The position numbers and the translations under genes are program-made. Positions 1,587-23,342 of a stretch of 31,748 nucleotides of DNA are shown here, piece by piece. Position 1 is the first letter of the stretch, and every line of letters begins with the position of its first letter. Source of the DNA: a virus; the IMG/VR virus record IMGVR_UViG_3300030419_003381, positions 6,050 through 37,797 of that record. The stretch is one strand, 5' to 3'. Under the pieces are notes generated by a model. That model worked only from the letters and a program-made list of their open reading frames with translations. It was not told the DNA's origin and made no database searches.

Positions 1587-1827
1587 AGTTCAGCCTTTTA
1601 TAGTATTCATGTCAATAAAAAATGAAAAAGGTAAGGTAGAAGATATACCATTAAGACCATTTTCTTATGAAGGGGAAGCAAAAGTTTACATAGCTGGATA
1701 TGTTGACGCTATAGTTAATCATACTGGCGAAGCAAATCATGCTGATGTAATGGGTCAGTTTTCAATACGAAATGTAACTGGCGAGATTAACGTTAATAAA
1801 TCAGATAAGGAGACTAAAAATGTCTAA
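1576..1827 (+). CDS. Hypothetical protein (83 aa), directly upstream of the ubiquitin-like gene
   Basis: Not recognised. The sequence alternates short hydrophobic beta-like stretches (PFIVFMSI, KVYIAGYVDAIVN, GQFSIRNVTGEINV), suggesting a small mixed alpha/beta fold. GGGAGAG precedes the ATG. It overlaps the previous gene by 11 nt and the ubiquitin-like gene by 8 nt, so it is almost certainly co-translated with the latter. A partner or target of the ubiquitin-like protein is possible from position only. Confidence 0.6.
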   Translation: MENEVQPFIVFMSIKNEKGKVEDIPLRPFSYEGEAKVYIAGYVDAIVNHTGEANHADVMGQFSIRNVTGEINVNKSDKETKNV

Positions 1828-2029
1828 AACAGTAAAAATACTATCAGGTGGTGGTTTCGTAACTAAAGAAACACGTGCTGAAACAATGAGTGAATTGCGA
1901 GAAGAAGAGGGTATTAGCTCTACTGCTTCTGCAGCTGTAGGTGGAGTAAATGTAAATAATTCATATCAAATACAAGAAGGTGATATTATTGCATTTGTAA
2001 ATAATGATAAAACTGGTGGTATAAAATAA
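1820..2029 (+). CDS. ThiS/MoaD-like beta-grasp ubiquitin-like protein ending TGGIK
   Basis: A 69-residue protein with the layout of ThiS, MoaD and related ubiquitin-like proteins. It has a first strand (TVKIL, residues 4-8), a TMSELREEEGI helix segment (22-32, compare TVAELL in ThiS), a middle strand (AAVGGVNVN), then IQEGDIIAFV (51-60) matching the LxxGDxVAF signature of MoaD. It ends in Gly66-Gly67 followed by Ile-Lys. In this superfamily the C-terminal di-glycine is adenylated by an E1-like enzyme and used for sulphur transfer or conjugation. The two residues after Gly-Gly imply proteolytic trimming. JAB peptidase, E1-like and candidate E2 genes lie 1.8-4.7 kb downstream on the same strand. 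No molybdopterin or thiamine genes are present, which favours a conjugation role. Confidence 0.75.
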   Translation: MSKTVKILSGGGFVTKETRAETMSELREEEGISSTASAAVGGVNVNNSYQIQEGDIIAFVNNDKTGGIK

Positions 2030-3474: not shown

Positions 3475-3640
3475 ATGGGATACATGTGCGGGATCTAATG
3501 AATTATATTTTAGAATTGGTTATTATGATAAGTTCTTTTTAGAAGATGGATTGCAAAATGTTTTTAAAGAAGTTGAACACGAAGACAGTGATTGTGGATT
3601 ATTGTATTCATATTATTTAAAGGAAAAAGATGAAGACTAG
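3389..3640 (+). CDS. Hypothetical protein (83 aa or shorter), overlapping the winged-helix gene
   Basis: Not recognised. The frame overlaps the preceding gene by 86 nt. The first ATG has GAGGAGGT upstream but with an unusually long spacer of about 14 nt. The internal ATG at 3434 would shorten the overlap but has no clear ribosome site, so the start is uncertain. The rest is acidic with aromatic residues (LYFRIGYYDKFF, LLYSYYLKEKDED). It overlaps the following small gene by 11 nt. Confidence 0.45.
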   Translation: MNTSGNLNRKHVKILMTHILLQKGIIDFKWDTCAGSNELYFRIGYYDKFFLEDGLQNVFKEVEHEDSDCGLLYSYYLKEKDED

Positions 3641-3815
3641 AATAGATAAATTGAAAAGTTGTAATAAGTGCAGAAAAGTTTGGCATAAAACCTATAGAAT
3701 AACCAGAACAGTTAATTATAATGGATACAGTTATTATAATGACTTTCCACATTATGGATTAGAAAAAGTGGATTGTCCAAAATGTAAGGAGATAAAAAAT
3801 GGCAGCAACGCTTGA
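3630..3815 (+). CDS. Zinc-ribbon microprotein (61 aa) upstream of the E2-like gene
   Basis: Two well separated Cys pairs, CNKC (residues 11-14) and CPKC (about 49-52), flank a tyrosine-rich beta-like segment, the pattern of a four-cysteine zinc ribbon. An AAAGGAA site precedes the ATG. The gene overlaps the previous frame by 11 nt and the E2-like gene by 17 nt, so it is translated with the conjugation genes. A zinc ribbon in this position could be a substrate-binding adaptor, but only its location supports that. Confidence 0.55.
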   Translation: MKTRIDKLKSCNKCRKVWHKTYRITRTVNYNGYSYYNDFPHYGLEKVDCPKCKEIKNGSNA

Positions 3816-5082
3816 TGCAAGAAATAGGTTCTTAGATGGTATTCGAGATATAGATAATATTATAGAAAGAATAGCATTAGGACCACAAGAGGAAGTGTTA
3901 GAAAAGTTTACAGAGCTAAATAGAAGATTTGGTACTGATTTTAGATGTACGCCAACATTTAGATGGGCACCTGGATTCTATAAAAAGTTAATGAATGAAG
4001 CTGGTAGATTATCTAATATTACTATTCAAAAGAATAAAGTATCTACTTATGCCAATCAAATACAAAATGGTAGATGGTATGTAGATGCTTTTATGACTAA
4101 AATACGAGAGATAGATAATAAACTATATTATTTAAGGAATAGCGGTATTTGTTTTCAAGATAATACTGATGATGTAAATAGAGTGCTTGGAGAATACAGA
4201 GATACTATATCTGATAGTATAGATGTTGCAATGGAAACATATCCTAATATGAATATATCTATTTATCATGGAATACATAGTGGCGATAGATCAAGATCAG
4301 TTCATGCTATTACATTTCACATTTATCTAGAAAATACTTGTATGAATATAAATATGGGAGGTGAAACTGTAAATGTTCCAATGGGAGACTTAGATATTAT
4401 TATATCTGTTGATTTAATAAAAAATATAATGAATAGAATAAGAAATGTTAGCAGATATTCACAAGGAAATACACAAAGTACTCATAGTAGCAATTGGAAT
4501 GGTGCTATATTTCATCCTCAAGAAGAAAATATACTATTTCCATATATTGGCAGAAATACATGGAATCATTCATTAAATGTTAATTTCGCTGAAGGACAAA
4601 ATACACCTGCAAAGTTTAATAATGTATGCTTTGGTGATTATACAAGTGAAATAGTAGAAGCTGCATGGAAAGGCGATATATTAGCTTTGTTTGCATGGAT
4701 TAATATATGGACTCAAAACTTTAATGTAGGTAGAACAGGACCTTTAAATGGATTTGAAACTATGTTTCATGGTATATGGCCTGAAATGGCAAGTGAAGTA
4801 TGGGAGTCAAGCGGAAGACTAGGTCATGTTTCTAGAATGGAAGGTTGTAACTATGCAGAAGTATTACAAGAAGCACAGCCTGCACAAGATGAATCATATT
4901 GCGATAGATATCAATGTATTCTTCGTGATAATTGTGCTGCATATAGGGCTATGTATATACCGCCAGAAACAACAGAAAATAATAGAGAAGTAGCTAATCA
5001 AGAGGGAGAAAGAACATTAACAGAAGCTGAAATACTAGCAATGTATCAAGGCATAAACACAGTGGATGTAAATCCATTTTAA
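3799..5082 (+). CDS. Candidate E2-like (ubiquitin-conjugating fold) protein, 427 aa
   Basis: The N-terminal about 130 residues are helical and unfamiliar. Residues about 150-330 hold an E2-like reading: a beta-rich region (AITFHIYLE, DLDIIISVDL), then an FHPQ motif with His239-Pro240, and about 35 residues later NNVCFGD with Cys277 followed by a long helix and WINIW. Bacterial E2-like families typically show an HPH/HPN motif, then N-x-C-x-G-(D/N) with the catalytic Cys, followed by hydrophobic helices. The C-terminus adds a possible metal site (C350, C368, C373, C379) and an acidic tail. AAGGAG lies before the ATG. JAB and E1-like genes follow immediately (13-nt gap, then overlap), the strongest support for an E2 role. 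It could instead be a substrate or scaffold of the system. Confidence 0.5.
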   Translation: MAATLDARNRFLDGIRDIDNIIERIALGPQEEVLEKFTELNRRFGTDFRCTPTFRWAPGFYKKLMNEAGRLSNITIQKNKVSTYANQIQNGRWYVDAFMTKIREIDNKLYYLRNSGICFQDNTDDVNRVLGEYRDTISDSIDVAMETYPNMNISIYHGIHSGDRSRSVHAITFHIYLENTCMNINMGGETVNVPMGDLDIIISVDLIKNIMNRIRNVSRYSQGNTQSTHSSNWNGAIFHPQEENILFPYIGRNTWNHSLNVNFAEGQNTPAKFNNVCFGDYTSEIVEAAWKGDILALFAWINIWTQNFNVGRTGPLNGFETMFHGIWPEMASEVWESSGRLGHVSRMEGCNYAEVLQEAQPAQDESYCDRYQCILRDNCAAYRAMYIPPETTENNREVANQEGERTLTEAEILAMYQGINTVDVNPF

Positions 5083-6046: not shown

Positions 6047-6705
6047 TGATAAATACAAGATCATCAGAGTTAGTAAATAACTTAGAAGACTTTACCTTTC
6101 ATATCTTGGGCTGTGGGGCTATTGGTAGTTCCGCAGCTCTTCAAATAGCAAGAATGGGTGCAACTCAATTTTGCTTATATGATATGGATAAAGTAGAAGA
6201 AGTAAATATAGGTGTATCACAATATACCTATGATGATATAGACAAACCTAAAGTAGAAGCATTATCAAATCATTTGAGAAAACTTGGAGTATTTAAAATT
6301 AATGAAGTTAATGGTAGATTTTCTCAGTTTAAACCTCAAGGTAAAAATGATATTGTTATATTAGGATTTGATTCAATGTCATCAAGATTAGAAGCAGTAG
6401 AGGCATTATTCAGCATCCCAGGAATAAAACCATTATATATAATTGATGGTAGAATGGGAGCTGAACATTATCAGCAATATGTATTTGATAATCCTACTGT
6501 ATCTAAATACAAGAAGACCTGGTATTCAGATGAGATTGGTAGCCCAGAGCCTTGCAATGCAAAAGCTACAAGCTATTGTTCTAATCTATCGGGTAGTATG
6601 ATAGCAAATACAGTAAGGAAATTAGTAACTGAACAACCTTTCAACAGGTCATTTTCATTTAACTTTCCTAATATGTTATTGGATAAGTCAGTTATGGTTT
6701 CGTAA
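6046..6705 (+). CDS. ThiF/E1-like adenylating enzyme (219 aa)
   Basis: A Rossmann-type ThiF/MoeB/E1 fold protein. From ATG 6046 the nucleotide loop GCGAIG is at residues 22-27, the strand-end acidic residues D46-x-D48 follow, then N54...Q59 and K69, and the strand GFDSMSSR has D109 and R114. Cys170 and Cys178 near the C-terminus are candidate transfer or structural cysteines. E1-like enzymes adenylate the C-terminal glycine of a ubiquitin-like protein. The Arg that often precedes Gln in N-x-x-RQ is Ser58 here. I prefer ATG 6046 to an upstream in-frame ATG at 6019, because 6046 has GGAG at 6035-6038 and overlaps the JAB stop. It is the last gene before the terminator at 6749. At 219 residues it is a minimal E1. 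Confidence 0.87.
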   Translation: MINTRSSELVNNLEDFTFHILGCGAIGSSAALQIARMGATQFCLYDMDKVEEVNIGVSQYTYDDIDKPKVEALSNHLRKLGVFKINEVNGRFSQFKPQGKNDIVILGFDSMSSRLEAVEALFSIPGIKPLYIIDGRMGAEHYQQYVFDNPTVSKYKKTWYSDEIGSPEPCNAKATSYCSNLSGSMIANTVRKLVTEQPFNRSFSFNFPNMLLDKSVMVS

Positions 6706-6799: not shown

Positions 6800-7285
6800 A
6801 TGTCTGAAGAAGGAACCACTACTGTGGAAGATTACTTGCCTCAAGATGATGATATTTATGAGTTCATTGAACAAACAATGTCAGATACTATAGGCAAGAT
6901 AGCTGGAGCCTTAGCTAAAGCTCAATCAGAAATGACTATGATTGAAGCTAAAAGTACTAATCCATTCTTTAATAGTAAATATGCAAGCTTATCTGCTGTA
7001 TTAGAAGTAGCAATGCCTGCATTAAACAATAATGGAATTGCATTAGTTCAAGGTAATAGATGGGATTCAAATGACAATGGATTCTATGTAACAAGCATGT
7101 TAATGCATTCATCAGGTGAGTGGATTAAAAGCGAAATAAGAATGCCTATAGCAAAGAAAGATGCTCATGGTGTTGGTGCTGCTACTACATATGGACGTAG
7201 ATATTTATTATCATCTATGGTCGGTGTAGCTCAAGCAGACGATGATGGTAACAGTGCTACTCTTAAAGCACCAAGAAAACAATAA
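6800..7285 (+). CDS. ERF-family single-strand annealing recombinase
   Basis: A 161-residue protein with the ERF superfamily signature: TNPFFNSKYASLSAVLEVAMPAL (about 53-75), the GI-L-QG turn, HSSGEWIKSE (103-112), then a conserved Gly/Ala-Thr-Tyr-x-Arg-Arg-Tyr stretch (GAATTYGRRYLL, 126-137) and DDDGN (147-151). ERF proteins anneal complementary DNA strands in phage recombination and replication. Length fits the short phage versions. It follows the terminator and has an AGGAGAC ribosome site. The SSB-like gene begins 11 nt downstream, a usual functional pairing. Confidence 0.9.
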   Translation: MSEEGTTTVEDYLPQDDDIYEFIEQTMSDTIGKIAGALAKAQSEMTMIEAKSTNPFFNSKYASLSAVLEVAMPALNNNGIALVQGNRWDSNDNGFYVTSMLMHSSGEWIKSEIRMPIAKKDAHGVGAATTYGRRYLLSSMVGVAQADDDGNSATLKAPRKQ

Positions 7286-7296
7286 AGGAGAGATAA

Positions 7297-7821
7297 ATGG
7301 CAAGAACATTTACACTACCAAAAAAAGGTACAGGCCAATGGACAGAAGGTTGGCATACAGTAACAATAAGTAAAGCAGAATATGGGACATTAGATAATGG
7401 ATCTAAATATATAGATGTATGGTTTAATTCTTATCCTGACAATTTTAATATGCGTATATATGAAAAAATAGGTAAGGATGGAGAAGAATTTGCAATTGGC
7501 AATTTATTTAGATTTTCTAATGCAGGTATTACTGATGCTTTAGAAAGTGCTACTGGTGAAACAGTAATTAAAATGAATGATGAACCTGAGGAACTTAATG
7601 GGAAAACAGTAAATGTATATTTCTATAAAGATGGAAAATATACTAGAATACTTGGACAAGTTGCTCCAGTGCCATTTAAAAATCTGGTAGAAGAGTTTAA
7701 TGAAAAAGATGTTACATACTTTAAGACTAAAGCTGAAACATTTTTCACTAAATGGATTGAACCAAAACTAAAAGATGAAACTCATGAGGAAGAATCAATA
7801 GCTAGCGATATCCCTCTTTAA
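7297..7821 (+). CDS. Single-stranded DNA-binding protein-like (174 aa)
   Basis: The body is rich in short beta strands (WHTVTISKAEYG, YIDVWFNSY, NMRIYEKI, KTVNVYFYKDGKYTRILGQV), consistent with an OB fold. The C-terminus is acidic and ends HEEESIASDIPL, like the acidic DDIPF-type tip through which SSB proteins recruit partners. A DUF669-like phage protein is an alternative name for the same kind of molecule. AAAGGAGAG precedes the ATG. Its place between the ERF annealing protein and the primase-helicase supports an SSB role. I cannot confirm DNA contacts from sequence. Confidence 0.65.
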   Translation: MARTFTLPKKGTGQWTEGWHTVTISKAEYGTLDNGSKYIDVWFNSYPDNFNMRIYEKIGKDGEEFAIGNLFRFSNAGITDALESATGETVIKMNDEPEELNGKTVNVYFYKDGKYTRILGQVAPVPFKNLVEEFNEKDVTYFKTKAETFFTKWIEPKLKDETHEEESIASDIPL

Positions 7822-7836
7822 TCTTTAACAATATAT

Positions 7837-7886
7837 AAAAGCCCACTGAATGGATCGTTTCGGGGACCCAAAGTAAGTGGGTTTTT
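7837..7886 (+). terminator. Hairpin with T-tract before the primase-helicase gene
   Basis: AAAAGCCCACT (7837-7847) pairs with AGTGGGTTTTT (7876-7886) over 11 bp with one G-T wobble. The 28-nt loop can form a small inner stem. The T-run is part of the 3' strand. It ends 19 nt before the start at 7906. It could be a terminator or attenuator, or a leader structure controlling the primase-helicase. Confidence 0.6.
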
Positions 7887-7905
7887 ATATTTAACAGGAG
7901 ACATA

Positions 7906-9690
7906 ATGATAAAAGAATTTGCATTTGGATTAGCACAAAGACATTATTTCCAAGATGCTGGAGATGTATGCAATTGGATGAATATAGATAAAGATACATT
8001 TATGTCCTTATATGATTTTGATGAAAATATTACAAATTACTTTAGTAAGAACAATACTTTATCAGGCTTTGATGGACTTGTATATATACCAGATGAATTT
8101 ATATTAGATGTAGATGGTATTGGAGAAAATGAATTAGAAGATGCCAGGCAAAAGGCATTAGGATTAAGCATCTTATTAGATGATTTACAAATACCATTTA
8201 GGTTATATTTTAGTGGCAATAAGGGGTTTCATTTTGGAATACCAGGAACAGCATTTAGATGGAAGCCAGATAAGAATTTACATTTAAATGTGAAAGATGC
8301 ATTAACTAATGCTGGTATATTTGATTATGCTGATCCGTCAGTGACTGATAAAATAAGGTTAATACGGGTCAATAATACGAAGAATTTAAAGGCTGGGCTT
8401 TGGAAATGTATTGTTCCTATGTCTATACTCCATTCAGAAAATATCAACGAGGATATAAAGAAAATAGCATATAAACCTGGAGATATTCCTGATTTTGAAC
8501 TTGAATGTGATCCAGTATTTGATGTACTAGAAAGGAATAAAGAAGATGAAGTTAAAACACCTGAGTTTATTAATCAGGGTAGGAATCCTGATCCAGTTAA
8601 TTATCCTTGTATATCTAGTATGCTTTGTAGTAATGCAAAGGGAGAGCGTCATGCTACTGCTTTACGTATTTCTGCTTGGTTTAGATGGTTATATCCTGAA
8701 TCAGTTGTTAATATCATTATGGAGCAATGGAGAGAACAAGTAGATGATCCTAAAAGTCCTTTTACAAAAAAGGAAATGGCAAGCATAATAAAGAGTTCAT
8801 ATGAATCTCATGGTGGACAAGGAAATAGATATGGATGTAGTGATATTATAATGGACAAACATTGCAGCCAAACTTGTAAACTATTTAAGTCAAAGAAAAG
8901 TCAATCTGTTATGGATGCACAAAGCATGGAAGAAAGTTTAATTAATTTCTTACGTAGTGATGTTAATCCTATAAACTTAGGAGATATATTCCCAGGTGAA
9001 GACTTTCCAATTTATCCAGGTGAAGTTGTTGTAATACAAGCTCCTCCTAAATCTATGAAGACTATGTTCTTGCAGAATGTAATGAATGGATTAAAGAGGC
9101 CGACTTACTTTATAGAAATGGAAATGTCACCTAGGCAGATATGGTCTAGATTTGTACAAATAGAAATGGGCTGGTCAGAAGAAGAGTTGAGATCACATTA
9201 TCAGCAAATGCAAAATGGTATGGATAAAAGATTTAAATGGTTGACAGTAGACTATTCATGCCCTTATGCTAATGAGTTAGAAAAGCGTATTGCTATGCTT
9301 CCAGTTAAACCAGAGATAGTTGTAGTTGATCATATGGGATTGTTTAAATCTAAACAAAGAGATCCTAATATGAAGACAGAAGAAGCATCTCAAGCTATGA
9401 TGGAATTAGCAGTAAGGCATAATATAATTGTATTCGCTGTAAGTGAAATAACTAAATCGGCATTCCATGAAGGTAATATGGACATTGCTTCAGCTAAAGG
9501 TTCATTTAGGACTGCATATAATACTAATAAATTGTTATCTGTTATACCTTCTAAAAGCATTACAACAGGTTTAATAGAGCAATTAAGAGTGAGATGTGAA
9601 GCTAATCGTGAACGTGAGCATTTAGATGTAAAGTTAACAGTTAATAATAGTAATATAAGAAAGGAAGTATATGAAAAAGCAGAAGTTTGA
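7906..9690 (+). CDS. Primase-helicase fusion (AEP-type primase plus DnaB/RecA-like ATPase)
   Basis: The N-terminal half resembles archaeo-eukaryotic (PrimPol-type) primases: FILDVDG with D68 and D70, SGNKGFHFGIPG (103-114, His109) and IRLIRVNNTKN (150-160, R151/R154). A middle part holds cysteines C235, C241, C311, C320 and C324, possibly a zinc or iron-sulphur site. The C-terminal half is a RecA-fold ATPase with a P-loop-position motif APPKSMKT (379-386), the Walker B strand IVVVDH (471-476) and a later SEITKSAFHEG region. Together they would prime and unwind phage DNA. The P-loop lacks both usual glycines, retaining only Lys-Thr. It follows the SSB-like gene, and the next gene overlaps its end by 20 nt. 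Confidence 0.8.
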   Translation: MIKEFAFGLAQRHYFQDAGDVCNWMNIDKDTFMSLYDFDENITNYFSKNNTLSGFDGLVYIPDEFILDVDGIGENELEDARQKALGLSILLDDLQIPFRLYFSGNKGFHFGIPGTAFRWKPDKNLHLNVKDALTNAGIFDYADPSVTDKIRLIRVNNTKNLKAGLWKCIVPMSILHSENINEDIKKIAYKPGDIPDFELECDPVFDVLERNKEDEVKTPEFINQGRNPDPVNYPCISSMLCSNAKGERHATALRISAWFRWLYPESVVNIIMEQWREQVDDPKSPFTKKEMASIIKSSYESHGGQGNRYGCSDIIMDKHCSQTCKLFKSKKSQSVMDAQSMEESLINFLRSDVNPINLGDIFPGEDFPIYPGEVVVIQAPPKSMKTMFLQNVMNGLKRPTYFIEMEMSPRQIWSRFVQIEMGWSEEELRSHYQQMQNGMDKRFKWLTVDYSCPYANELEKRIAMLPVKPEIVVVDHMGLFKSKQRDPNMKTEEASQAMMELAVRHNIIVFAVSEITKSAFHEGNMDIASAKGSFRTAYNTNKLLSVIPSKSITTGLIEQLRVRCEANREREHLDVKLTVNNSNIRKEVYEKAEV

Positions 9691-11411: not shown

Positions 11412-11441
11412 GATTATAGGGAGTTAATTCTCCCTATAGTC
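11412..11441. terminator. Bidirectional terminator at the convergence point
   Basis: GATTATAGGGAG (11412-11423) pairs with CTCCCTATAGTC (11430-11441) over 12 bp with one T-G wobble and a six-base loop TTAATT. It lies between the last + strand gene and the last - strand gene and includes the - strand stop codon. Neither side has a long T-run, so efficiency is uncertain, but position and symmetry fit a two-way terminator. Confidence 0.7.
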
Positions 11442-14325
11442 TAGTTAAAGCAGCTAAAGCAGCAGCCTTTACTCTCTTGTCTTTAGCAGAACTCTTACTA
11501 TCTATATCTACATTTGGAAGTATTGGAATCTGATTATAGGTTTTATCAGCAAGACCTTTCATTACACCTTTTCTCCAATTTTTCATCCACCTTGGTTGAA
11601 AGATACCAGATTCAACCCTTAAAGCTTTTTCCATTTGACCTTTCATAAGAGCTGGCATTGTATGCCATCCTGTTCTGGCTCCCTGTATGCTAAATATACG
11701 GGCAACATTATACCACCAATCAGGATCTGATGGGTCATAATTAAGGTTTCTATGCTCTTCATATTCTGGAGAACCAGAAGCTTGATCAAGGAAATCTAAC
11801 AATTCAGCAGCTGTTAATATATCGCTTATAAAAGGACCAAGATTACCTGTTATAGGATTTTTCCCATAATACGCAGCATATTTTTCCTTTTCATCATCTG
11901 AAAATATATAATTATAAAGCTTAGAAGCATCTTCAATAATTGGATTTTCTATAATTGATACTCCAGATCTTTGAGTTCCTTCTTCAGCCCTGTCTTCTTT
12001 AAAGGGACTACCAAAGGCACCAAATACTCCTCCTAAATCACTATTAAATGCTAATCCTGCTAAACCTGGAAGCAATGTGTAAATAGAGGCCATTCTAAAC
12101 ATCCTAGAAAAACTTTCACTAACTACCATTTCTCCAGTTATTGGATCTCTTTCCTTGAAATTAAAATCTTTAACATCTCTAGCAAAATCCTTAATAAGAT
12201 TATATTGCATATCGAAAAATGCAAACTTAAAATGTTGATACTGACCTATAACTTTACCACCTTTAGATCTAAGTATTTTAGCCTTTGCCCATGTATCATA
12301 ATCATAATGTAAAGTTCTAACCATATCATTAGCAGCATTGCCTGCATCGTTTTCAATCTTGTCATATATATCTTTTTTTGTTGCTTCTCTTCCAAGCTTT
12401 TTCCTTAAGTTGGCTGCATGATGATCATATCTACTTTGTTCTATCATAAAAGCATTTGCAAAAGCAATTTTAAAAGTATTTAACCTATTAGCATTTTCAG
12501 CCCATGCCATTGGTTTTGCTGCAAAATTAGTAAATTTTTCAGCAGTTAATGAAGCTCTCTTTAAAGTGGTTCCTTTTGTTTCAGGTATAATTTTACCTAC
12601 AGAGTTTAAGGTAAATCCTTCAGGAACATATAATATATCCATTGATCCACCTGTAGCAGCAGATGTCATTGTCCACCTGTCTCCCATCTTTAAACCAAAT
12701 CTTCTTAATTGCCTTTGAAGTAATGCTTTATTATCTCTAGCCTTTCCAGTTTCTTTACCGCTAGGATCATATTCTCTATTACTTCTTTCGTAAAACTCTT
12801 TAGATCTATTATAGCCTTTTCTTCCAAAGAAAACCCAATTATATAATCCTTGAGTCCTATTCTTTAATGCTCCTCTTACACTAAATCCTAACTTAGATAT
12901 ATACTCAAACCCATTTATAATCTGAACCATATGGTCCATGCTATCCATAGATCCTTTATGATGATTGATTGCAGAATCTCTAATCTCAGTAAGAATAGAT
13001 AGCATCTCACGAGAATAATCTCCAACATCCCCACCTTTCATATCAGCATTATTGCGAAGCTCTTTAAATAAGGTTTTAGTACCTTCACTAAATGCATATT
13101 GTATTCTTGCCCTTGAATTAAAGCTAGCTACATCATGAGCATATTTATTTAAATAATATATAGGATCAAGAGATGAATATAAATCTGTTTCAGGAGCTTT
13201 AAATTTTAATCTAGTTGTATTTAAATCACTTTCCATAAGGCGTTGAGCATCTCTATATAAAGCTTCAGCATTATCATACCTAAAATTAGTCTTATCTTTA
13301 TTTAATGCATACTCTGATATATTAGATACTATATCAGCTAATTCAATCACATAACTTGGAGAATATTTCTTGACACCTACCGCAAACTCTCCAGTCTCTT
13401 TATCAAATACTCTATAAGGCTCATTCTTTTTTGTCTCTGGATTAAAAACTTTCATTTCAAATCCATAGTTTTCACCAGTAGGAACAGCTAGCAATTTATC
13501 CTTGCTGGATTGCACTAATAAATGATCAATCTTTTCTTGTATTAAGTCAATAGATTTATTTAAATATCCAACATCCTCTAATGATGAAAGCTTAGATCTT
13601 ATAGCCATCTTTGCCATAGTAGCTCCATTTAATAGATTTTGCATAGAATTAGCACGCATTATATTCCATTCTCTCTGTATCATTCTTTCATTTTCATTCT
13701 TTGGTTGCTTTGAAAAATCTAGCAATCCTTGAAACCTACGCAATACTTGTCCCCCTACAGGAGTATTATTGTTATCTAAACTTCCAACTATTTTAAATAG
13801 CTGATTAATCATTGCTGTTTTTTGCTCTTGAGTTTTAGCCCCTATTAAATTTCTTTCTAGCTGTTGAAATTCTTTGAACTTTTTGCTATCCCAGTTTGCA
13901 TCTTTAATCATTCCGTATAATCCATCAATCATAAATTTAATATGTTGAGCACTTTCCTTTGTTTGTCTTTGATGGAATGATAGAGTCTCTGCTACATTAT
14001 TATAAAATTCTTCTCCTCCTTTTACATTTCTTACTAAAGCTTTTGGAAGCTTAAAGTATCGAGAGAATAAAGATTTACTTTGACCATAATTGTTTACAAA
14101 GTTCTTAACTTCTCTTTTGTATCTCTTTAATTCATATGGTTCTATCTTAATATTATCAAGATCAAATGGTTTGTTCTTGTTAGCTTTTCTCCAAAGCCAT
14201 TCTGCTGTTTCTGCTGTATTGTCTCCATTCTTAACTATCTTATAATTATTATCTAGTTCTCTACTTACTTTAAGAAACTCATCAAATCTTTTTCTTTGTA
14301 TGGGATCAGTTGTCAGACAATTCAT
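11434..14325 (-). CDS. Large internal virion/ejection protein (963 aa)
   Basis: I start at ATG 14325, where AGGAG sits 7 nt upstream and the ATG overlaps the previous stop (TAATG). The protein is largely helical and charged. A segment with WAENANRLNTFKIAF and, further on, A-NDMV-TLHYDY and GKVIGQYQHFKFAFFDMQ (about residues 630-740) resembles the C-terminal region of large polyvalent phage proteins (LPD38-like), though this is a by-eye resemblance. A hydrophobic glycine-rich stretch (SIYTLLPGLAGLAFNSDLGGVFGAF) could insert in membrane. It follows the 3005-residue gene and is probably co-injected with it. No enzymatic motif is seen. Confidence 0.6.
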   Translation of the reverse strand: MNCLTTDPIQRKRFDEFLKVSRELDNNYKIVKNGDNTAETAEWLWRKANKNKPFDLDNIKIEPYELKRYKREVKNFVNNYGQSKSLFSRYFKLPKALVRNVKGGEEFYNNVAETLSFHQRQTKESAQHIKFMIDGLYGMIKDANWDSKKFKEFQQLERNLIGAKTQEQKTAMINQLFKIVGSLDNNNTPVGGQVLRRFQGLLDFSKQPKNENERMIQREWNIMRANSMQNLLNGATMAKMAIRSKLSSLEDVGYLNKSIDLIQEKIDHLLVQSSKDKLLAVPTGENYGFEMKVFNPETKKNEPYRVFDKETGEFAVGVKKYSPSYVIELADIVSNISEYALNKDKTNFRYDNAEALYRDAQRLMESDLNTTRLKFKAPETDLYSSLDPIYYLNKYAHDVASFNSRARIQYAFSEGTKTLFKELRNNADMKGGDVGDYSREMLSILTEIRDSAINHHKGSMDSMDHMVQIINGFEYISKLGFSVRGALKNRTQGLYNWVFFGRKGYNRSKEFYERSNREYDPSGKETGKARDNKALLQRQLRRFGLKMGDRWTMTSAATGGSMDILYVPEGFTLNSVGKIIPETKGTTLKRASLTAEKFTNFAAKPMAWAENANRLNTFKIAFANAFMIEQSRYDHHAANLRKKLGREATKKDIYDKIENDAGNAANDMVRTLHYDYDTWAKAKILRSKGGKVIGQYQHFKFAFFDMQYNLIKDFARDVKDFNFKERDPITGEMVVSESFSRMFRMASIYTLLPGLAGLAFNSDLGGVFGAFGSPFKEDRAEEGTQRSGVSIIENPIIEDASKLYNYIFSDDEKEKYAAYYGKNPITGNLGPFISDILTAAELLDFLDQASGSPEYEEHRNLNYDPSDPDWWYNVARIFSIQGARTGWHTMPALMKGQMEKALRVESGIFQPRWMKNWRKGVMKGLADKTYNQIPILPNVDIDSKSSAKDKRVKAAALAALTRL

Positions 14326-17300
14326 TAACACTCTCCTAAGTATTTTTGCTTTAATTCAAACTCTGCATTGTTTTTGCCTTTACTTTGAAGTTGGAAATTA
14401 GTACCTTTTTCATATATTGATCTACTGTTAAAAAAATGTCCATCTGGATCTATATCTATTCTATCTACACCTTTCCAAGATTCATTCATAAACCTAATAA
14501 CTTCAGTAGGATTAGGAACTTCATTTAATTTATTCCCATATAGATTATATGTAGCTCTATATAGCTCTACAGGATCCATAAAATATGAACCGCTTAAATA
14601 AGACAGCATAACATTTTTAGCAGTATTATCTAAGTTAGGATCTAAAGCCCATTCAGGAAGAGTTTTAGGCTTAGGTAATATACCTCTGTCAGAAGGATCA
14701 CGCATAGCTCCTTGAAACTTAAATGCATCTCCTTTTAATGCAGGATTATATTCTAACATATATGCCTTCATGTGATTATCTACTATATCTTTATGTAGCC
14801 TGCCTGCAATATCTTTTCCTAAGTCTGAAGAATCATCTGTTTTTGCTCTATCTAAGAATGAAAAGACTAATCTTTCATTATATTTATTTTGATGAAAGCT
14901 AGGAACATATTGACTTCTACCCTCAAGTGCATTATATCCTACTATATCGTAGGTATTTTTTCTTACTTTTGGAGCTAGCAAATTGTACAATAATTGTTTA
15001 GTCATAACTTCAGATCTACCATACATTGATAGCCCTTGAATATCTTTGATAGCATCTGAAAGGACTCTTAGATGAGCCTCTGTAACCACCCCAAACTTAT
15101 TAAATGATGTTGCTCCATCTTGGGTTAATAGTTTTGAAGCTTTATTTAAATCTTTTTTATACTTTTTTACTATACTATTAACTTGCATTAACTCAATATC
15201 GGTTACTATCTGTCTTGCAAAAGCTCTACTCATTGCTCTTCTTTGAGCTGAAACATTTCCATTTTCTATTCTTACTTTTGCATAGTTCTGAGCTAATATT
15301 TCTCCCTTTCTATAAGTAATTAATTGACCTGGTTTATATTCTTTGATAGGGAAAACATCATAGCCAGTAGCACTCTTGTCATTCTTGTTTCTTATGAATT
15401 TTAAAACAGGATAATTTCTTCTTGTACTACCTGCCTTATCTTTAACTTCAAATTTATTTTCACTATAAGTAGCATTAAGATTAAACTCCGAGACTAATTG
15501 CTTCCTATTATCTCTCATATTCTTTAAGGTTTCAAATTTATCTTTATTTATAGAGCCACCTCTTCTACCATGCATTCTTAAATTATCTAATACATTCTCA
15601 ATTTGCTCTACTTCCCATGCTACATACTCCATTTCAGCCCATTTATCCCGATCTTTAATAGTCTTCTTTACATATGAACTAAACCGATCATTTGATACAG
15701 GAGTACTTGAGGCCATCATACTTGCCAAATCACTTCCAGATGGTATACCTCTTTTGAAATTTTGTCTTAAGCTATTTTCTATAGCTATCAAACCTTTTAT
15801 TAATGGATGACTTGATTGGCCTAAGGAAGCACCACCAATGTCCTTACTTCCACCTAATCTCTGATCCCCTAAAAACCTTAATATATCATTAGATAAAACT
15901 TTAAGCTCATTACTGTCTCCTAAGTTAAAAGAACCGTCTTTGCCCTTATAATGATTATGACCAGCTAAGCTTATTTTTCTTTTTGCTGATTGAAAAGCAT
16001 TATTAACTTCCCAAAGACTCATCTTCCTTCTGCTTCCGTCAGACATATATTCTGTCATATTAGCAATATTAAATATCTCAGCAATAGGCAGCATTATTTC
16101 CCTAACCATTTTCGAATGAAGCTTTCTGAAGTCTTTATTTGTGACATCTACAGCCTGAACTACTTGTCCAAGATCACCTGCACCCATTTTTGTCTGATAT
16201 ATTTCAAACATGCCTTCTATTTTTTCGTAAAGCATATTTTCTATTTGCTTAGGATCTATCTTTGATGGATTTTTATATATATCTATAGTCTCTTTAATTA
16301 AAGACTTAGTATTTTGTATAGCATCAACAAACTGGGCTCCACCTTTAAACTTAACAGTATATGTTGATCTTCTACCTTCATGTTCAAATAATTCCATTCC
16401 AGAATTTTTATGATAATAGTCTGGCCTTAATCCAGGAAGCAATTCATTTTCTTTATTTTTTACTGCTGCAAGTTGATACAGAAACGATGAAACAGAATGT
16501 GACCTTACTAATGCTGGTCTCTTTGCAGCTAACTCCATCATGTCAAGTCTATATTGTTCTACATCTACACCAGATATAGTATCCATTCCTTCTAGCACTT
16601 TAAAGAATACATCTTTAGCAGGATCTTGATAGCCAGAGAAATTATAAATCTCTTTAATAACCTTTCCAGGCAATGCAAAAAAGCTAGAAGATTTATCTAA
16701 ATCAAAATCTGCATCCTGAGTATCAATGACATCTAAATAATTCATCTCTGATACAGGGCCTTTTTTATGATTTAATAATTTTTCTACTTTAGTAATAACC
16801 CTATCATTAGCCCCAACCATTGGAGTTCTAAGGTCAACCTTAGCTAAATGTATATTCTTATATGAGTTTCCACCGGCAATAGTCTTTGCCATTGAGAATG
16901 CAGTATTATTAGTAGTTCTAAAGTCTAGATTAGGATCTATTGATTCTCCTCTTCTTCCATCAAGATACATTACAAAATCACCGATAGTATGAACATCTCC
17001 AGACTGTAATGCCCTATCAACTATTTCTTTATAATCTTTCGATATATCACTTTCTAACTGCTTTAGAAGCTTACTATCGGCAGCCTTTCTCTTTTTTGCA
17101 GTTATATCTCTTTGAATCCCAAATCTAATGTCATCTAACCCAGGCCCCATTAATTGTCCATCAAAAGTATATACTAAGTCAACTCCTTCTTTAATGCCCA
17201 TAGGAGCGAACTCTTTATACTTAGCTGCTAAAGATTTATCAACATTAAATATTAAGCTTATACCTTCATTATTACCTTTGAACAGCCCAGATATAGGCTT

Positions 17301-20300
17301 ATTCCAAGAATAATATGACATTCCACTTCCCCCAAAAGATGTTTGAGTCCCACCTTCTCTTATCCCTATCGAAAGTCCATCTCCAGCTGTCATTGCTTCA
17401 TAAGCTCCATTTTTCATTTGGCTAGAAGTAAAGTTTCTTCTTCCTAGATATTCAGATACAACCATCTTTTCAATTTGAGGAGCCATATATTCAAAGGAAG
17501 GAATACCTCCTGATTGTATAATCCCTTCAATACCCATTACTTGCATTAAATTATCTCCATGCTCATAATTGATACCTTTTAAATGCTCAACTATTTTCCT
17601 GCTAGCAAATGGGCTTTCACTTAACTGAGCATGCCTTTCAAGTACATCTCTAACTGAGTTTTGAGAACCTGTAATTGAATTTATAGCGTCTGTAGCATCT
17701 TTTGTAAAAAAGTTTGTAAAAGCACTTGACATCGTAGCATCATGCTCTCCGCTTATTGACTTTATAAATATAGCTTCTCTAGGCAGTTCATATATATGGT
17801 CAGATGTGATATTGTTCTTAATCAAATCTCCAAGATGCTCTTTCCAACCTACCCTTAAATCATTACTTGATATTTCTGGCAGATTAAATATTTTAGCTTG
17901 ATATTCAGCATCTGCACTAGACTTAACTGCATTCTTCTTTACAGCACTCTTGAATGTAATTGAGTCAAACATATAATTCCCATCTGAATCTTTCATCATA
18001 GAGTCAATAACTGGATCATATTTATATGCAGTCTTTCCTACATATACAGTAGCACTACCATCAGAAATATTTATTCGAGAATCAAGCTCAATAGGCTTTA
18101 CAACGACATTAAATCCTGTAATTTTTCCATCCTCATCGCGAGTAAACCAATCAGACCTTGCTCCCTTTTGCATTAATATTGAAGTCATTTCAGGCAATGA
18201 TAAGTATTTCTCACCATTAACAATAGATGCATTAATATTTTCGTAAACTTCCATTTGAGCCTCAGCTTCATTTCTGGCTTCAGCTTCAGACATTCCTCTT
18301 TCTTTGATGTATTTTTGAGTTAAGTCTTTCATTCCTCTAACTTGAGTATTAAAAAATGATTCTGCTGCTTTTTTCTCTTGAGGAGTTCCACCTTCATCTC
18401 TTATAGTTAATGTTCTTTGAGGTTTTATAGATCCATCTGGATTAAATGTATGCTTTAAAAATGTATCATAACCATCTCTAAGTATATGATCTTGAGGTAG
18501 CATTCTATCTAAATAAATTTTAGCAAAGTCAGCAGTAGTCTTATCTAATGCCATTCCTGTTCTTGGACTATCTAACTTTAGATATTTCATAAGCTTTCTT
18601 ACATCTGCAATATCATTATTTTTATTAACTACATTAGATAAATCATCATGAAAGCTCCCTAGCATTCTAGTCATTAATAATATATGTTCTGCATTATCTC
18701 CAGTAGTTTTTATCTTTGCATTTCCGTTTTTATCTATTTCTGCTCCTAATTGCCTTCTCAAGTAATCCTCTGCTTTAGCTTTATCACCAACAGCAATTTC
18801 AAATTTCCTTCTATTTTCAGAGGTAGGAGAAGACCAGGATTGAATAACTTTATCAAATGCATTTTGATGTAAGAAAACCATTGTCTTTTCATCTAGCGTT
18901 ATGGCTCTTGTTTGGGCTGTACCTTTTCTGCCATCACCAAAACCAAATGTTCCTAACTGCTCAAGTATAGCTTTATCTCCAGTTGATAATATATCTCTAG
19001 GATTAATATTAGCTCCAACACCAGACTCTACTATACTATTAAGCTCTCTCATAACATCAGGGGTTAATCTAGTTCTAATAGTTCTTTCATTGGCCCATCT
19101 ATTCCCAGCTAATAATAATTGACCAGATTGCAATCCAAGCATTTGTTCCAACTTCACAATGCCTGTATTCCAAGTGGATATATTTGCATGAGATAATTCT
19201 AATACTCCATTGTTAAACACTGCCATAGGAAATTTAGTATTAGCTAAACCCGATTGCATTATGAACATAGTATCCATAACAAAATCTTGATACATTTGCT
19301 CTGAAGTAGACTTCCCTTTTTCATTTGGTGGTAACAATTCCCATTTAGCTTCAATAGAAGCTTTTTGAGATTCAACAACAGGCTTAATGAATATATCTAT
19401 ATAATTTTCATGTGTCATACCTAACATCTTTTGTAATTGATCAAACCCTGATATAGGATCTCCAGATATAGATGCATCATCTACAAGCTTTATGATTCTT
19501 TCTTGCTCTTTTGTTAGTTTTTCTAAGCCTCTAATAAGCTCAATAGGATTCTTTTTAAATTGCTCAACCTTAGTCATATCATTATTAAACCATCTAGCAG
19601 CATATTGAGAGTCTGATATAGATGTATTACCAGCATGAATCTTTCCACTTCTATCTGTCATTCTTAAGTTATCAATAATAGATTCAGTATAACTGTTAAT
19701 ATCCTGTATCTCATCAAAGTTTAATTTTTGTTCTTGTATCTTTCGCTGCTCTACTATAAAATCTCTAAGCGTATTTGTATAATCTCTTAATGCATCTGGT
19801 ACATTAGAATCTGTTTGCATTTTCTGATTCAAATCACTAAGCTTATGCATTCTATCATATACAGACCTGAATCCTATAATATTATCTTGACTTTGATAAA
19901 TAGATAATAACTCAAGTAAATTATTATTCTCTAAAGATAGATCGGAAATTCTAGAACTCAACTCCTTATTTATAGTTCCGTCTGACTCTACTAATTTTTG
20001 GCTTTCTGTAATCACATCTTTAATAGTTTTATTTAAGCCTGAAGTAACATACATTAAAGATTCTAAATCAAGAGCAGATACTCTGTCTGCATTGACAATC
20101 ATCTCTTGCATAAACTGTTTAATCTCTTGCGGAGAATGATATTCTAAATTAATATTATCTCTATTAAATCTAATAAGAGATACATCAGTAAGATTTCTTT
20201 TTAATGGATTTTCTACTATTTGCTTATAGTCTCTTATAAGCTTTCTTGTTTGCTCTGTGATTGCATTTTTTTCTGGACCTCCAGTATTTTCATACTGCAA

Positions 20301-23300
20301 TAATAAGGTCTCTATCTTGTCTGCCTCAACGATATGCAGCACATTTCCTTTTCTATAAGCAAAAGGATTATTAGCATTAAGTGCTGTAACTAAAGCTCTT
20401 CTTAGTCCTGTGCCTAGATTAGGATTTCCAGTTAATTTTGATGTTATTTGTTGCTCAGTATATCTCATAAAGGAAGATAAAACTTCTTGATTGTTTAGTA
20501 GAGTTTCACCTGAATATGATCCTAATTCTTTTACAATATTCTGCTCAACTTTTTCAAACTGTGCTTTTGTAATCTCTCTTATGCCAGTTCCAATATCTGG
20601 AGATAGCATGCCTTTTAATAAATTTAAATTTTCTAACGCTTGCATATTCTCTTTTGAGACGTTAACTAAATCTTGAGCTGTAAACTCTAAACGCTCGTTG
20701 CCTGAATATATATCACCAATTATTTCATTGTACCTGTCTATATTCCCTTCAGATTTTGTAAATATTTCATATGCTTTTCTATTTCTTTCATGAAGTTCCC
20801 ATGTGTGCATAGCATGCCAAACTGGCTTTGATGCCATTATATTAGGATCAGGGAATCCAGATTCAGGAGAACTGTAATGAGGTACAATTTCTCTCCAATT
20901 TAAACCATCTTCACTAAGTGTAAGTTGATGCATCTTTTCTGCATTTGTTTTATATAAGGCATTAAATCTTGATAATTGATCTTCTGTAGGCAATGCCCCT
21001 CTCCAGAGTTGTCCACCTTTATCAGAATTTATAGATACAAATCCAGATCTTTGTGCTTCTATAATAGCATTGTGTAATGCTGAGGCTGAATCTACATATA
21101 TATTTTTAGTTTGTCCTGTTTCATCTACTCTATAATGATTACTTTTAATACTCTCTAAAAGATCAACAGCAGTCTTATGTATTTGAGGCTTACCCATTGG
21201 GTCAAGATCAATCCTTATACCTAATGATTCAAAGGAATCTATTATATACGATATCTCATTATTTCTAATTGATTCGGACATTGCTCCAACAGCATTCTGT
21301 CTTTTCTCTTTTAATACAGTTTCAACAGTAGTTGGGTCTAAGATCCTCCCATCTACTCTTATAGAATTTAATTCTTGTATATATCTGTCTGTTTCTTCTG
21401 CTGTCATAGGACGAGTTTTTTTATATCCAGCTCCTATTTCTCCAGAGTCTTGTAATTTACTTGCAACAAAAAATTGATCTTTAAAAGACTTTAATTCTGC
21501 CTGTAATTCTGATTTCCTAGAAGTATTTTTTTCAGCTGCTATTTGAGCAGTTAGATCAGCAATCTTTTTATGAGCATGAACTTGCCATATTTGAACTGCA
21601 CCAGTCTTATCAGCATTTAATGTAGTTATTATTTCATCTGCATCTGCAAGATTTTCTCTAACTTTATCATGTATTTTTTTCAGCTCAGGAGAATTTTCAT
21701 CAACAGCCTTACTTACTTTCCCTATTGCCTTCTCATTATCTGCAACCCTTGCCATTCCAGCAATTTTATCTAATACTTCAGGTTTATATCCTAATATATC
21801 CATAGTTTTAACCCATGAATTAATTTCTCCGCCTGTACCATCTACTCCTGTTTTTTCAAAGAATCTAGGCATTTTAGGTCTACCCTCAAATGTTTTGCCT
21901 CTCTTCATATAGATCATTCCTATATAATGATCTGCTAATAACTTATCATAAGGATAATCTTCTGTCCCTATAATATCTCTTGATTCATAATACATGGTCC
22001 CATTCATAAGGAGAGATCCAATAGAAGCTCTCCAAAAGGACTCTGCTCCATCTCTTCCTATTTCACTTGCTAGGTTTGCGATCAATCCCTTGTTTAACTT
22101 TCCTTGAGCATCTCTATGTGGAAATACTTCTTTCTTAACCTGTCTAAATGCTTGCCTTAATATATCTACCTGCTCAGGCTTTAACTTGCCGTCAAGTAAT
22201 GATGTAGAAAATCCTTTAACATTACTCAACCAAGATACTGGTTTACCAGCACCACCCCACATCGTCTTTAAAGATAACTGCAATTGTCCTGGGGTCATTC
22301 TTTCTACGTTTCTAAATCTATTTCTAAAGCCTCTTCCTATATGCCCTATATCAGCCATCATTCCACTTTTCCCGAACTGTACTGCCTTACCGCCAGGAAT
22401 GTATCGTGTAGGGGCTAATACGGAGCCTAAAGCAGCCCCATGTAAAGCTCTTGCATACCAAGGTTTAAATAATCCAGGGGCATCTGATTCTTCTAGTTCA
22501 TAAATATTAGCAGCTATTTCACCAGCTTCACCCACCAAAGTATCAAAGGTTCCAAGTAATACTGCTTCATATGCTGAATCTCCAACTATTTGAGATATTC
22601 TGGGACCTACACCCGCTGCACGTAAAGATGTGGATATAGAGTTTCCAAATGTTTTAGTTAAGCTTTCTCCAGCTTCGCCTAATGCCATTTTAGTTAATGC
22701 TGTTAATTGCTGCGGATTGATATTTGGAATATTCTCAACCAAAGTTTCTGTCATTATTTTGCTTGCCTGAGCTTCTATCCTAGGGTTTGCAAGAGGATTA
22801 GTTTTTAATGCTCTTCTTGTAAAGTATGACCATGGTTTAACGCCATTTAATTCTGCATCTAACCCTTCTTTTATAGCCTTTCTGCCTGTCTTTATAATAT
22901 CCTCACCAAGCTCTTCACCTATTTCTTGGCCACCTTTTTCAAATATTTCTTTAGCTACTTTTTTACCAGCAGGTTTAACTCCTGCATTGGCCAATTTAGA
23001 TATTGCTCCTAATCCTTTTCCTATTGTACCTATACCACTTATAATACCTGCACCTGTACCTAAAGCATATCCAACTTTACCAGCTAAAGATTCATCCTTC
23101 CATTCATCTGAACCAAAGCTTCTAGATAATTCTCCCTTAGATGCTATATCAGCTACCGTTGGAAGAACAAGCGACTCCCCAAAACCCCATGCAAAGTTTC
23201 CAAGAAGATCTCCTACTGGAGTATCAACAAAGCCCCTGTCCTCACCAAGGGCTTCTTCTTGTCTTTGAGCTTCTTCTTGCTGAAGTCTCTCTAGCTCTCT

Positions 23301-23342
23301 TTTGCGTTGCTCTAAAGCTAATCGCTCTTCGCGTGTCATCAT
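14325..23342 (-). CDS. Giant virion protein with RNA-polymerase-like DFDLD motif (3005 aa)
   Basis: A 9-kb gene with no internal stops. The N-terminus has a charged coiled coil, then a glycine-zipper segment (GYALGTGAGIISGIGTIGKG, from about residue 91) like phage ejection proteins. Near residue 2172 an R-T-P motif is followed, about 40 residues later, by DADFDLDK (D2212-F-D-L-D2216) and a Pro at 2225. Multisubunit RNA polymerases have R-Q-P, then NADFDGD-x6-P, in the catalytic double-psi barrel, and the crAss-like phage virion RNA polymerase has DFDID. Much of the rest is long helices and unrecognised. AAGGA precedes the ATG. Flanking genes look like other ejection proteins. The likely role is an injected virion RNA polymerase; the alternative is a giant cargo protein with a fortuitous acidic motif. 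Confidence 0.6.
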   Translation of the reverse strand: MMTREERLALEQRKRELERLQQEEAQRQEEALGEDRGFVDTPVGDLLGNFAWGFGESLVLPTVADIASKGELSRSFGSDEWKDESLAGKVGYALGTGAGIISGIGTIGKGLGAISKLANAGVKPAGKKVAKEIFEKGGQEIGEELGEDIIKTGRKAIKEGLDAELNGVKPWSYFTRRALKTNPLANPRIEAQASKIMTETLVENIPNINPQQLTALTKMALGEAGESLTKTFGNSISTSLRAAGVGPRISQIVGDSAYEAVLLGTFDTLVGEAGEIAANIYELEESDAPGLFKPWYARALHGAALGSVLAPTRYIPGGKAVQFGKSGMMADIGHIGRGFRNRFRNVERMTPGQLQLSLKTMWGGAGKPVSWLSNVKGFSTSLLDGKLKPEQVDILRQAFRQVKKEVFPHRDAQGKLNKGLIANLASEIGRDGAESFWRASIGSLLMNGTMYYESRDIIGTEDYPYDKLLADHYIGMIYMKRGKTFEGRPKMPRFFEKTGVDGTGGEINSWVKTMDILGYKPEVLDKIAGMARVADNEKAIGKVSKAVDENSPELKKIHDKVRENLADADEIITTLNADKTGAVQIWQVHAHKKIADLTAQIAAEKNTSRKSELQAELKSFKDQFFVASKLQDSGEIGAGYKKTRPMTAEETDRYIQELNSIRVDGRILDPTTVETVLKEKRQNAVGAMSESIRNNEISYIIDSFESLGIRIDLDPMGKPQIHKTAVDLLESIKSNHYRVDETGQTKNIYVDSASALHNAIIEAQRSGFVSINSDKGGQLWRGALPTEDQLSRFNALYKTNAEKMHQLTLSEDGLNWREIVPHYSSPESGFPDPNIMASKPVWHAMHTWELHERNRKAYEIFTKSEGNIDRYNEIIGDIYSGNERLEFTAQDLVNVSKENMQALENLNLLKGMLSPDIGTGIREITKAQFEKVEQNIVKELGSYSGETLLNNQEVLSSFMRYTEQQITSKLTGNPNLGTGLRRALVTALNANNPFAYRKGNVLHIVEADKIETLLLQYENTGGPEKNAITEQTRKLIRDYKQIVENPLKRNLTDVSLIRFNRDNINLEYHSPQEIKQFMQEMIVNADRVSALDLESLMYVTSGLNKTIKDVITESQKLVESDGTINKELSSRISDLSLENNNLLELLSIYQSQDNIIGFRSVYDRMHKLSDLNQKMQTDSNVPDALRDYTNTLRDFIVEQRKIQEQKLNFDEIQDINSYTESIIDNLRMTDRSGKIHAGNTSISDSQYAARWFNNDMTKVEQFKKNPIELIRGLEKLTKEQERIIKLVDDASISGDPISGFDQLQKMLGMTHENYIDIFIKPVVESQKASIEAKWELLPPNEKGKSTSEQMYQDFVMDTMFIMQSGLANTKFPMAVFNNGVLELSHANISTWNTGIVKLEQMLGLQSGQLLLAGNRWANERTIRTRLTPDVMRELNSIVESGVGANINPRDILSTGDKAILEQLGTFGFGDGRKGTAQTRAITLDEKTMVFLHQNAFDKVIQSWSSPTSENRRKFEIAVGDKAKAEDYLRRQLGAEIDKNGNAKIKTTGDNAEHILLMTRMLGSFHDDLSNVVNKNNDIADVRKLMKYLKLDSPRTGMALDKTTADFAKIYLDRMLPQDHILRDGYDTFLKHTFNPDGSIKPQRTLTIRDEGGTPQEKKAAESFFNTQVRGMKDLTQKYIKERGMSEAEARNEAEAQMEVYENINASIVNGEKYLSLPEMTSILMQKGARSDWFTRDEDGKITGFNVVVKPIELDSRINISDGSATVYVGKTAYKYDPVIDSMMKDSDGNYMFDSITFKSAVKKNAVKSSADAEYQAKIFNLPEISSNDLRVGWKEHLGDLIKNNITSDHIYELPREAIFIKSISGEHDATMSSAFTNFFTKDATDAINSITGSQNSVRDVLERHAQLSESPFASRKIVEHLKGINYEHGDNLMQVMGIEGIIQSGGIPSFEYMAPQIEKMVVSEYLGRRNFTSSQMKNGAYEAMTAGDGLSIGIREGGTQTSFGGSGMSYYSWNKPISGLFKGNNEGISLIFNVDKSLAAKYKEFAPMGIKEGVDLVYTFDGQLMGPGLDDIRFGIQRDITAKKRKAADSKLLKQLESDISKDYKEIVDRALQSGDVHTIGDFVMYLDGRRGESIDPNLDFRTTNNTAFSMAKTIAGGNSYKNIHLAKVDLRTPMVGANDRVITKVEKLLNHKKGPVSEMNYLDVIDTQDADFDLDKSSSFFALPGKVIKEIYNFSGYQDPAKDVFFKVLEGMDTISGVDVEQYRLDMMELAAKRPALVRSHSVSSFLYQLAAVKNKENELLPGLRPDYYHKNSGMELFEHEGRRSTYTVKFKGGAQFVDAIQNTKSLIKETIDIYKNPSKIDPKQIENMLYEKIEGMFEIYQTKMGAGDLGQVVQAVDVTNKDFRKLHSKMVREIMLPIAEIFNIANMTEYMSDGSRRKMSLWEVNNAFQSAKRKISLAGHNHYKGKDGSFNLGDSNELKVLSNDILRFLGDQRLGGSKDIGGASLGQSSHPLIKGLIAIENSLRQNFKRGIPSGSDLASMMASSTPVSNDRFSSYVKKTIKDRDKWAEMEYVAWEVEQIENVLDNLRMHGRRGGSINKDKFETLKNMRDNRKQLVSEFNLNATYSENKFEVKDKAGSTRRNYPVLKFIRNKNDKSATGYDVFPIKEYKPGQLITYRKGEILAQNYAKVRIENGNVSAQRRAMSRAFARQIVTDIELMQVNSIVKKYKKDLNKASKLLTQDGATSFNKFGVVTEAHLRVLSDAIKDIQGLSMYGRSEVMTKQLLYNLLAPKVRKNTYDIVGYNALEGRSQYVPSFHQNKYNERLVFSFLDRAKTDDSSDLGKDIAGRLHKDIVDNHMKAYMLEYNPALKGDAFKFQGAMRDPSDRGILPKPKTLPEWALDPNLDNTAKNVMLSYLSGSYFMDPVELYRATYNLYGNKLNEVPNPTEVIRFMNESWKGVDRIDIDPDGHFFNSRSIYEKGTNFQLQSKGKNNAEFELKQKYLGEC

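Follow-up and report, generated by a model that had tools for sequence, protein, structure and literature searches.

A candidate E2 enzyme in a phage operon encoding the parts of a probable ubiquitin-like conjugation cascade

What is the role of a 427-residue phage protein whose gene lies immediately upstream of genes for a JAB-type protease and a ThiF-type adenylating enzyme? The protein is encoded on a stretch of 31,748 nucleotides (the window; positions 6,050 to 37,797 of IMGVR_UViG_3300030419_003381), which comes from a virus record of 52.8 kb. A terminase, a portal protein, the major proteins of head and tail and a match resembling a tape measure mark this record as that of a tailed phage, which appears to be marine and to carry its own complete machinery for tagging proteins with a ubiquitin-like protein (Ubl). 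A sequence-only reading of the DNA had proposed that the 427-residue protein was a divergent E2 with extra helical and Cys-rich parts. The open reading frame was present as described, with a Shine-Dalgarno-like AAGGAG just 5' of it, and at about three times the length of a bare E2 domain it was as large as had been stated. We propose, with a probability of roughly 0.78, that the protein is the E2 of a complete phage-encoded Ubl-conjugation cascade.

Table 1. Features of the putative Ubl-conjugation operon and its neighbourhood (window coordinates)
Feature	Position	Strand	Remark
Ubl, 69 aa, ending K-T-G-G-I-K	1820..2029	+	ThiS-like
Ubl Gly66-Gly67, predicted mature C-terminus	2015-2020	+	two-residue tail left to trim
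Candidate E2, 427 aa	3799..5082	+	conserved Cys, motif, gene context
Candidate E2, residues 1-120, conserved and partly helical	3799..4158	+	
Candidate E2, G28-P29-Q30	3880-3888	+	
HPx-like motif, residues 247-250	4537..4548	+	FPYI in the window, HPYI in many homologues
Cys277, predicted thioester-forming catalytic cysteine	4627..4629	+	invariant, 77/77
W304 to P315-L-N317, conserved post-Cys element	4708..4749	+	
Four-Cys module, C350, C368, C373, C379 (C-x17-C-x4-C-x5-C)	4846..4935	+	probable metal site
JAB/JAMM isopeptidase-like protein, 316 aa	5096..6046	+	E29, H90-S-H92, S100-x2-D103
E1-like ThiF-family adenylating enzyme, 219 aa	6046..6705	+	ATG start codon overlapping the stop codon of JAB
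Replication/recombination genes beside the operon	6800..9690	+	context, outside the cascade
ERF annealing protein	6800-7285	+	
Weakly SSB-like protein	7297-7821	+	
Primase-helicase	7906-9690	+	

The partners of the candidate E2 can be named on solid grounds: a ThiF/UBA5-like E1, a JAMM protease with Rpn11 as its nearest relative, and a ThiS-like Ubl. The E1 matched Pfam ThiF with an E-value of 2.9e-16, and its profile found UBA5 as the best PDB match (E 2.5e-11), along with MccB, ThiF, MoeB, BubCD and Cap2. In an alignment of 25 sequences, its adenylation residues G22/G24/G27, D46, D48, N54, K69, D109 and R114 were all invariant, as were two cysteines, C170 and C178. All five residues of the JAMM signature E...H-x-H-x7-S-x2-D were invariant in the JAB protein, Prok-JAB was matched by 26/26 members (best E 5.7e-6), and the best PDB match was the Rpn11-like N11 (E 2.3e-5). 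The Ubl matched ThiS and no other family (19 of 46 members, best E 1.3e-4; E 0.024 for the window copy), and K64, G66 and G67 of its K-x-G-G were invariant in all 50 non-redundant homologues. This similarity, together with the C-terminal Gly-Gly, is what is expected of a beta-grasp Ubl. Exactly at GG is where 24 of the 50 homologues end, the remainder having 1-60 extra residues. The longest tail, 60 residues past GG, was seen in contig L004 (3078-3512) against the short tails of most relatives, and this protein is perhaps a precursor fusion.

Relatives were gathered with the ThiF-like neighbour as bait, which gave 80 viral contigs, a set that was enlarged by two more scans. After the removal of repeated contigs, a close E1 was present in 150 distinct contigs (window included), and a detectable relative of the 427-residue protein in 109 distinct viral contigs. 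A direct peptide-pattern search with the candidate E2 itself returned no relatives, and tblastn against 50,697 phage records returned one chance match only. No relatives of the E1 were found in bacterial genome contigs, and so nothing points to copies in prophages or hosts. Gene order (Ubl, E2, JAB, E1) was constant, with no exceptions in contigs reaching far enough: JAB directly preceded E1 in 121/121, the candidate E2 family preceded JAB in 85/85, and the Ubl lay upstream in 57/57 distinct contigs. The E2, JAB and E1 genes mostly touch or overlap. The genes are adjacent and lack a rhodanese, as in the type 6 operons of Iyer et al., with the identity of the putative E2 resting on motif and context. 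In one metagenomic viral contig (L095, 2-1186) the C-terminal part of JAB and the E1 form a single ORF, truncated on its 5' side at the contig edge, and this fusion supports a joint function. Downstream, the 150 contigs had ERF in 40, the weakly SSB-like protein in 68 and the primase-helicase in 134, with Sak4-like annealing-protein families in 74 and 27 contigs. In three contigs (L044, L045 and L050) a gap of 3.3 kb separates E2 from JAB in place of touching genes, possibly an inserted element.

The 77 non-redundant homologues of the candidate E2 (90% cut) show its ORF to be a real, conserved gene. The family evolves fast; P248, C277 and W304 were fully invariant in the 77-sequence alignment, as was P315 (77/77), with N317 in 65/77 and G325 and C373 nearly invariant. 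The conservation of Cys277, a check set beforehand, was complete (77/77). It is the sole invariant cysteine, with C50, C118 and C181 not conserved, and it lies in the N-x-C-F-G-D setting reported earlier (N-V-C-F-G-D). The His239-Pro240 pair that had been taken as the E2-type motif did not hold up, since H239 was found in 9/77 and P240 in 7/77, and it is rejected as an active-site motif. The conserved element is instead F247-P248-Y249-I250, which reads [HFY]P[YF][IVL] in 77/77, with His in 40/77 and the Asn of HPN never present. While the loop between this HPx-like motif and the Cys varies from 13 to 49 residues, the distances that follow are held in all members, 26-28 residues from Cys277 to W304 and 10-11 from W304 to P315. 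The family frame may be written as [HFY]-P-[YF]-[IVL], x13-49, C-x-[GDS], W at +27, P-x-N. Since this pattern was derived from the family itself, its full spacing in every family protein that reaches 300 residues (116/116) measures uniformity, and its occurrence in 0/7,733 other ORFs (768,409 residues) and 0/20,000 shuffles of the window protein measures specificity. The Cys context is V-C-F-G in the window protein and, as in eukaryotic E2s, V-C-L-D in 27/77. One clade reads HPYIS/FPYIS...YGTVCLD...WAQYYN...SNPYN, close to the E2 signature HPN...G-x-I/V-C-L-D. Yeast Ubc4 and Ubc13 share with the family an HP-x-[IV] followed by [IV]-C-L-D and a P-x-N-like element; the phage proteins differ from eukaryotic E2s in the Tyr/Phe that replaces the Asn of HPN, in the longer motif-Cys loop, in their extra N- and C-terminal domains and in the want of a significant profile score.

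Profile methods showed no significant similarity to any E2 or RWD family. Neither the single sequence (scanned with Pfam, PHROGs and NCBIfam) nor the 77 members (Pfam and PHROGs) nor the consensus sequences (Pfam) had a meaningful match of any kind, and PDB profile searches, including one with the core of the VCLD clade, also came back empty. The family is absent from the reference databases searched (Pfam, PHROGs, NCBIfam, PDB). When this core was aligned by hhalign with four yeast E2s (sequences not taken from a database), Cys277 fell on the catalytic Cys with an E-value of 0.027, a score equalled by 4/200 column shuffles and 2/24 unrelated families. Comparisons with PRTRC_B and a crAss-like E2-like family were sub-threshold. 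Several of these hhalign comparisons, those with yeast E2s included, aligned Cys with Cys at a level near chance. Since these scores are near chance, no homology to E2 is claimed from hhalign. A crude, alignment-averaged Chou-Fasman prediction gave a helix at about 123-146, four strands at about 151-206, the HPx motif and then the Cys, which is consistent with the order of elements in E2s. For the proposal of a divergent E2, then, the invariant Cys277 and the fitting Ubl/JAB/E1 context count in its favour, whereas the His239-Pro240 assignment was wrong. Against an E2 stand the profile comparisons, none of which reached significance, and the motif itself, in which the HPN Asn is Tyr/Phe, the His is present in 40/77 and the distance to the Cys exceeds that of classical E2s. 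Its position, its invariant Cys and its motif make the protein likely to be an E2, its homology being unproven. The cascade is otherwise without an E2, and since the sole remaining invariant component has one invariant Cys in an E2-like motif, this component is the candidate. The evidence for a complete phage operon for Ubl conjugation is good.

The ThiS match of the Ubl also raises the prospect that the operon is a sulphur-carrier system, with a ThiS/MoaD-like Ubl-thiocarboxylate and a ThiF-type E1, in which the 427-residue protein would be a sulphur-accepting or a cofactor- or nucleotide-modifying enzyme using Cys277. ThiF, MoeB and MccB are among the relatives of the E1, and JAB proteins are also found with ThiS/MoaD-type sulphur-carrier genes (PMC1779556). 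We consider this unlikely, since the family-scanned neighbours are replication and recombination genes, with no rhodanese, SirA or biosynthetic genes recognised among them, the JAB protein is closest to a deubiquitinase (Rpn11), the E1 has UBA5 as its best PDB match, and the HPx...C...P-x-N element is E2-like. The protein might alternatively belong to the cascade without having an E2 fold, either as a Cys-dependent transferase of separate evolutionary origin (a HECT-like or transglutaminase-like acceptor) or as a dedicated substrate of the Ubl. Its size (two to three times that of an E2), the lack of profile similarity to E2 in the scans made, and the fast evolution with few fully invariant residues would all agree with such a reading. 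Against this, the succession of HPx, C, helix and P-x-N, evenly spaced after the Cys in all members, matches the layout of the E2 active site, the crude secondary-structure average also gives the E2 order, and a protein that served only as substrate would have no need of a single invariant Cys, so that a non-E2 fold seems to us improbable.

Nor do we favour a descent from PRTRC. The bacterial operons predicted by Iyer et al. (2006) combine Ubl, E2, JAB and E1, and their type 6d corresponds to the plasmid PRTRC cassettes with Ubl, a helical protein, Prok-E2_D, JAB and ThiF (PMC1779556). Broadly the same gene set on mobile elements (PMC1779556; L185) could mean that the candidate E2 is a diverged PRTRC_B (Prok-E2_D). 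The two systems share a stand-alone Ubl with terminal Gly, an adjacent E2, JAB and E1, the mobile element and the lack of a noted E3, and their E1s are detectably related (PRTRC ThiF, hhalign E 5.7e-12; TIGR03736, E 1.9e-5). However, the candidate E2 profile reached an hhalign probability of <1% against PRTRC_B, PF14460 matched 0/77 members, and the downstream TH-x-N histidine of PRTRC_B is absent, with the HPx motif present instead. There was also no similarity to PRTRC_F or PRTRC_C; the phage operon is without PRTRC_F, and the comparison gave no support to PRTRC_F as the origin of the helical N-terminus. The phage E2 is about 430-690 residues long with a Cys4 module and HPx, while the PRTRC E2 is about 240 residues with TH-x-N, and the phage genes lie beside annealing, SSB and primase-helicase genes where the plasmid cassettes lie beside ParB. 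Taken together, we regard a diverged PRTRC_B as very unlikely.

Returning to a phage E2, the extra parts noted earlier, a helical N-terminus and a cluster of four cysteines, were both borne out. Residues 1-120 are partly helical and conserved in their own right, with G28-P29-Q30, N41, T51, W56 and G59 standing out (G28 and Q30 each 72/72, N41 71/73, W56 69/73). C350, C368, C373 and C379 are conserved as a set, all four being present in 66/77, and they probably form a metal site. The remaining homologues have mostly lost the four together, a pattern that fits a metal site dispensable for catalysis. Their spacing presumably recalls that of helicase iron-sulphur sites; a [4Fe-4S] cluster was considered and is not claimed. 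Both regions could choose or hold substrates, and substrate recognition built into the extra domains, as the earlier reading suggested, is a reasonable guess.

In the proposed cascade, the JAB protease would trim the C-terminal tail of the Ubl and expose Gly-Gly, although roughly every second Ubl homologue has GG as its end from the outset. The E1, of established ThiF family, would adenylate the Ubl C-terminus and may hold the Ubl on one of its invariant cysteines, before the Ubl passes, presumably as a thioester, to the conserved Cys277. The helical N-terminus and the metal-type Cys4 module may then position or choose the substrate in place of a separate E3; no RING or E3 gene was recognised among the neighbouring ORFs profiled. 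From its relation to Rpn11, the JAB protein might also reverse the tag. As genes for an annealing protein, SSB and primase-helicase always follow the operon, replication or recombination proteins of the phage or host might be guessed as substrates. The whole picture is of a new family of E2s in which a metal-binding module for substrate selection is built in (E2-E3 in one chain), and of a self-contained phage cascade, common among marine phages and with a parallel in Crassvirales, that tags replication or recombination proteins in the course of infection. It is offered tentatively, as a possibility that we would not expect to hold in full.

A similar arrangement is found in Crassvirales (cr85_1, 'frurule'), bajarodcaudo virus 1 and Fipvunavirus (Fpv1), where a protein with a Ubl-like N-domain, a protein of about 370-720 residues, JAB and ThiF follow in the same order and also adjoin replication genes. 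The large proteins of these phages carry HSH...C-x-G and W/V-E-S-x-x-G-x-P, and their genes are annotated only as hypothetical. The loci differ in that these E2-like proteins are not detectably homologous to the window family, their Ubl is the N-terminal part of a protein of 218-289 residues, and the Cys4 module was not found there. Four Crassvirales and Fipvunavirus loci (L084, 3954-6899; L083, 4734-7966; L082, 3535-6815; L085, 2598-6969) have the parallel order, and in L082-L085 the E2-like protein, of 370-430 residues with MHSH...C-x-G, and the Ubl-like protein are annotated as hypothetical. With CBASS Cap2 and the Bub/Bil systems the phage operon shares E1, E2 and JAB-type enzymes acting on the tail of a small protein, consistent with the Cap2 and BubCD matches of the E1 profile. 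Cap2, however, is an E2-E1 fusion that acts on a nucleotidyltransferase in bacterial defence, whereas the phage E2 would be a separate large protein with its own gene and its own Ubl, in a replication region. The operon is not of the Cap2 type, which pairs this fusion with a CD-NTase, and no CD-NTase was found among the profiled neighbours.

Most of what is known of Ubl conjugation in bacteria comes from defence systems and plasmids. In the present case a phage group of lytic type appears to supply a whole reversible cascade of its own, with an E2 too diverged for the databases searched. No prior report of this phage system was found in the open-access literature searched, and an earlier description elsewhere is possible. 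If our reading is right, Ubl, E2, JAB and E1 form a minimal four-gene system that could be rebuilt in a test tube, and it raises what phages tag and why beside replication genes. It would also offer a starting point for naming the unannotated genes beside 'ThiF' and 'metalloprotease' in Crassvirales, and would bear on the way in which an E2 can acquire substrate choice when there is no E3.

Some other features of the window may be recorded. An 83-residue protein (1576-1827, +) overlaps the Ubl start and is found just upstream of the Ubl in 17 loci (repeated contigs included). The end of a 61-residue zinc-ribbon-like ORF with CxxC...CxxC (3630-3815, +) overlaps the start of the candidate E2. 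Within an HNH endonuclease ORF (267-950) there is a perfect 12/12 sigma-70-like promoter match (409-437, +). On the minus strand, an ORF of 3005 residues (14325-23342) and its 965-residue neighbour (11434-14331) both lack a PHROG match and are probably large virion or tail-tip proteins.
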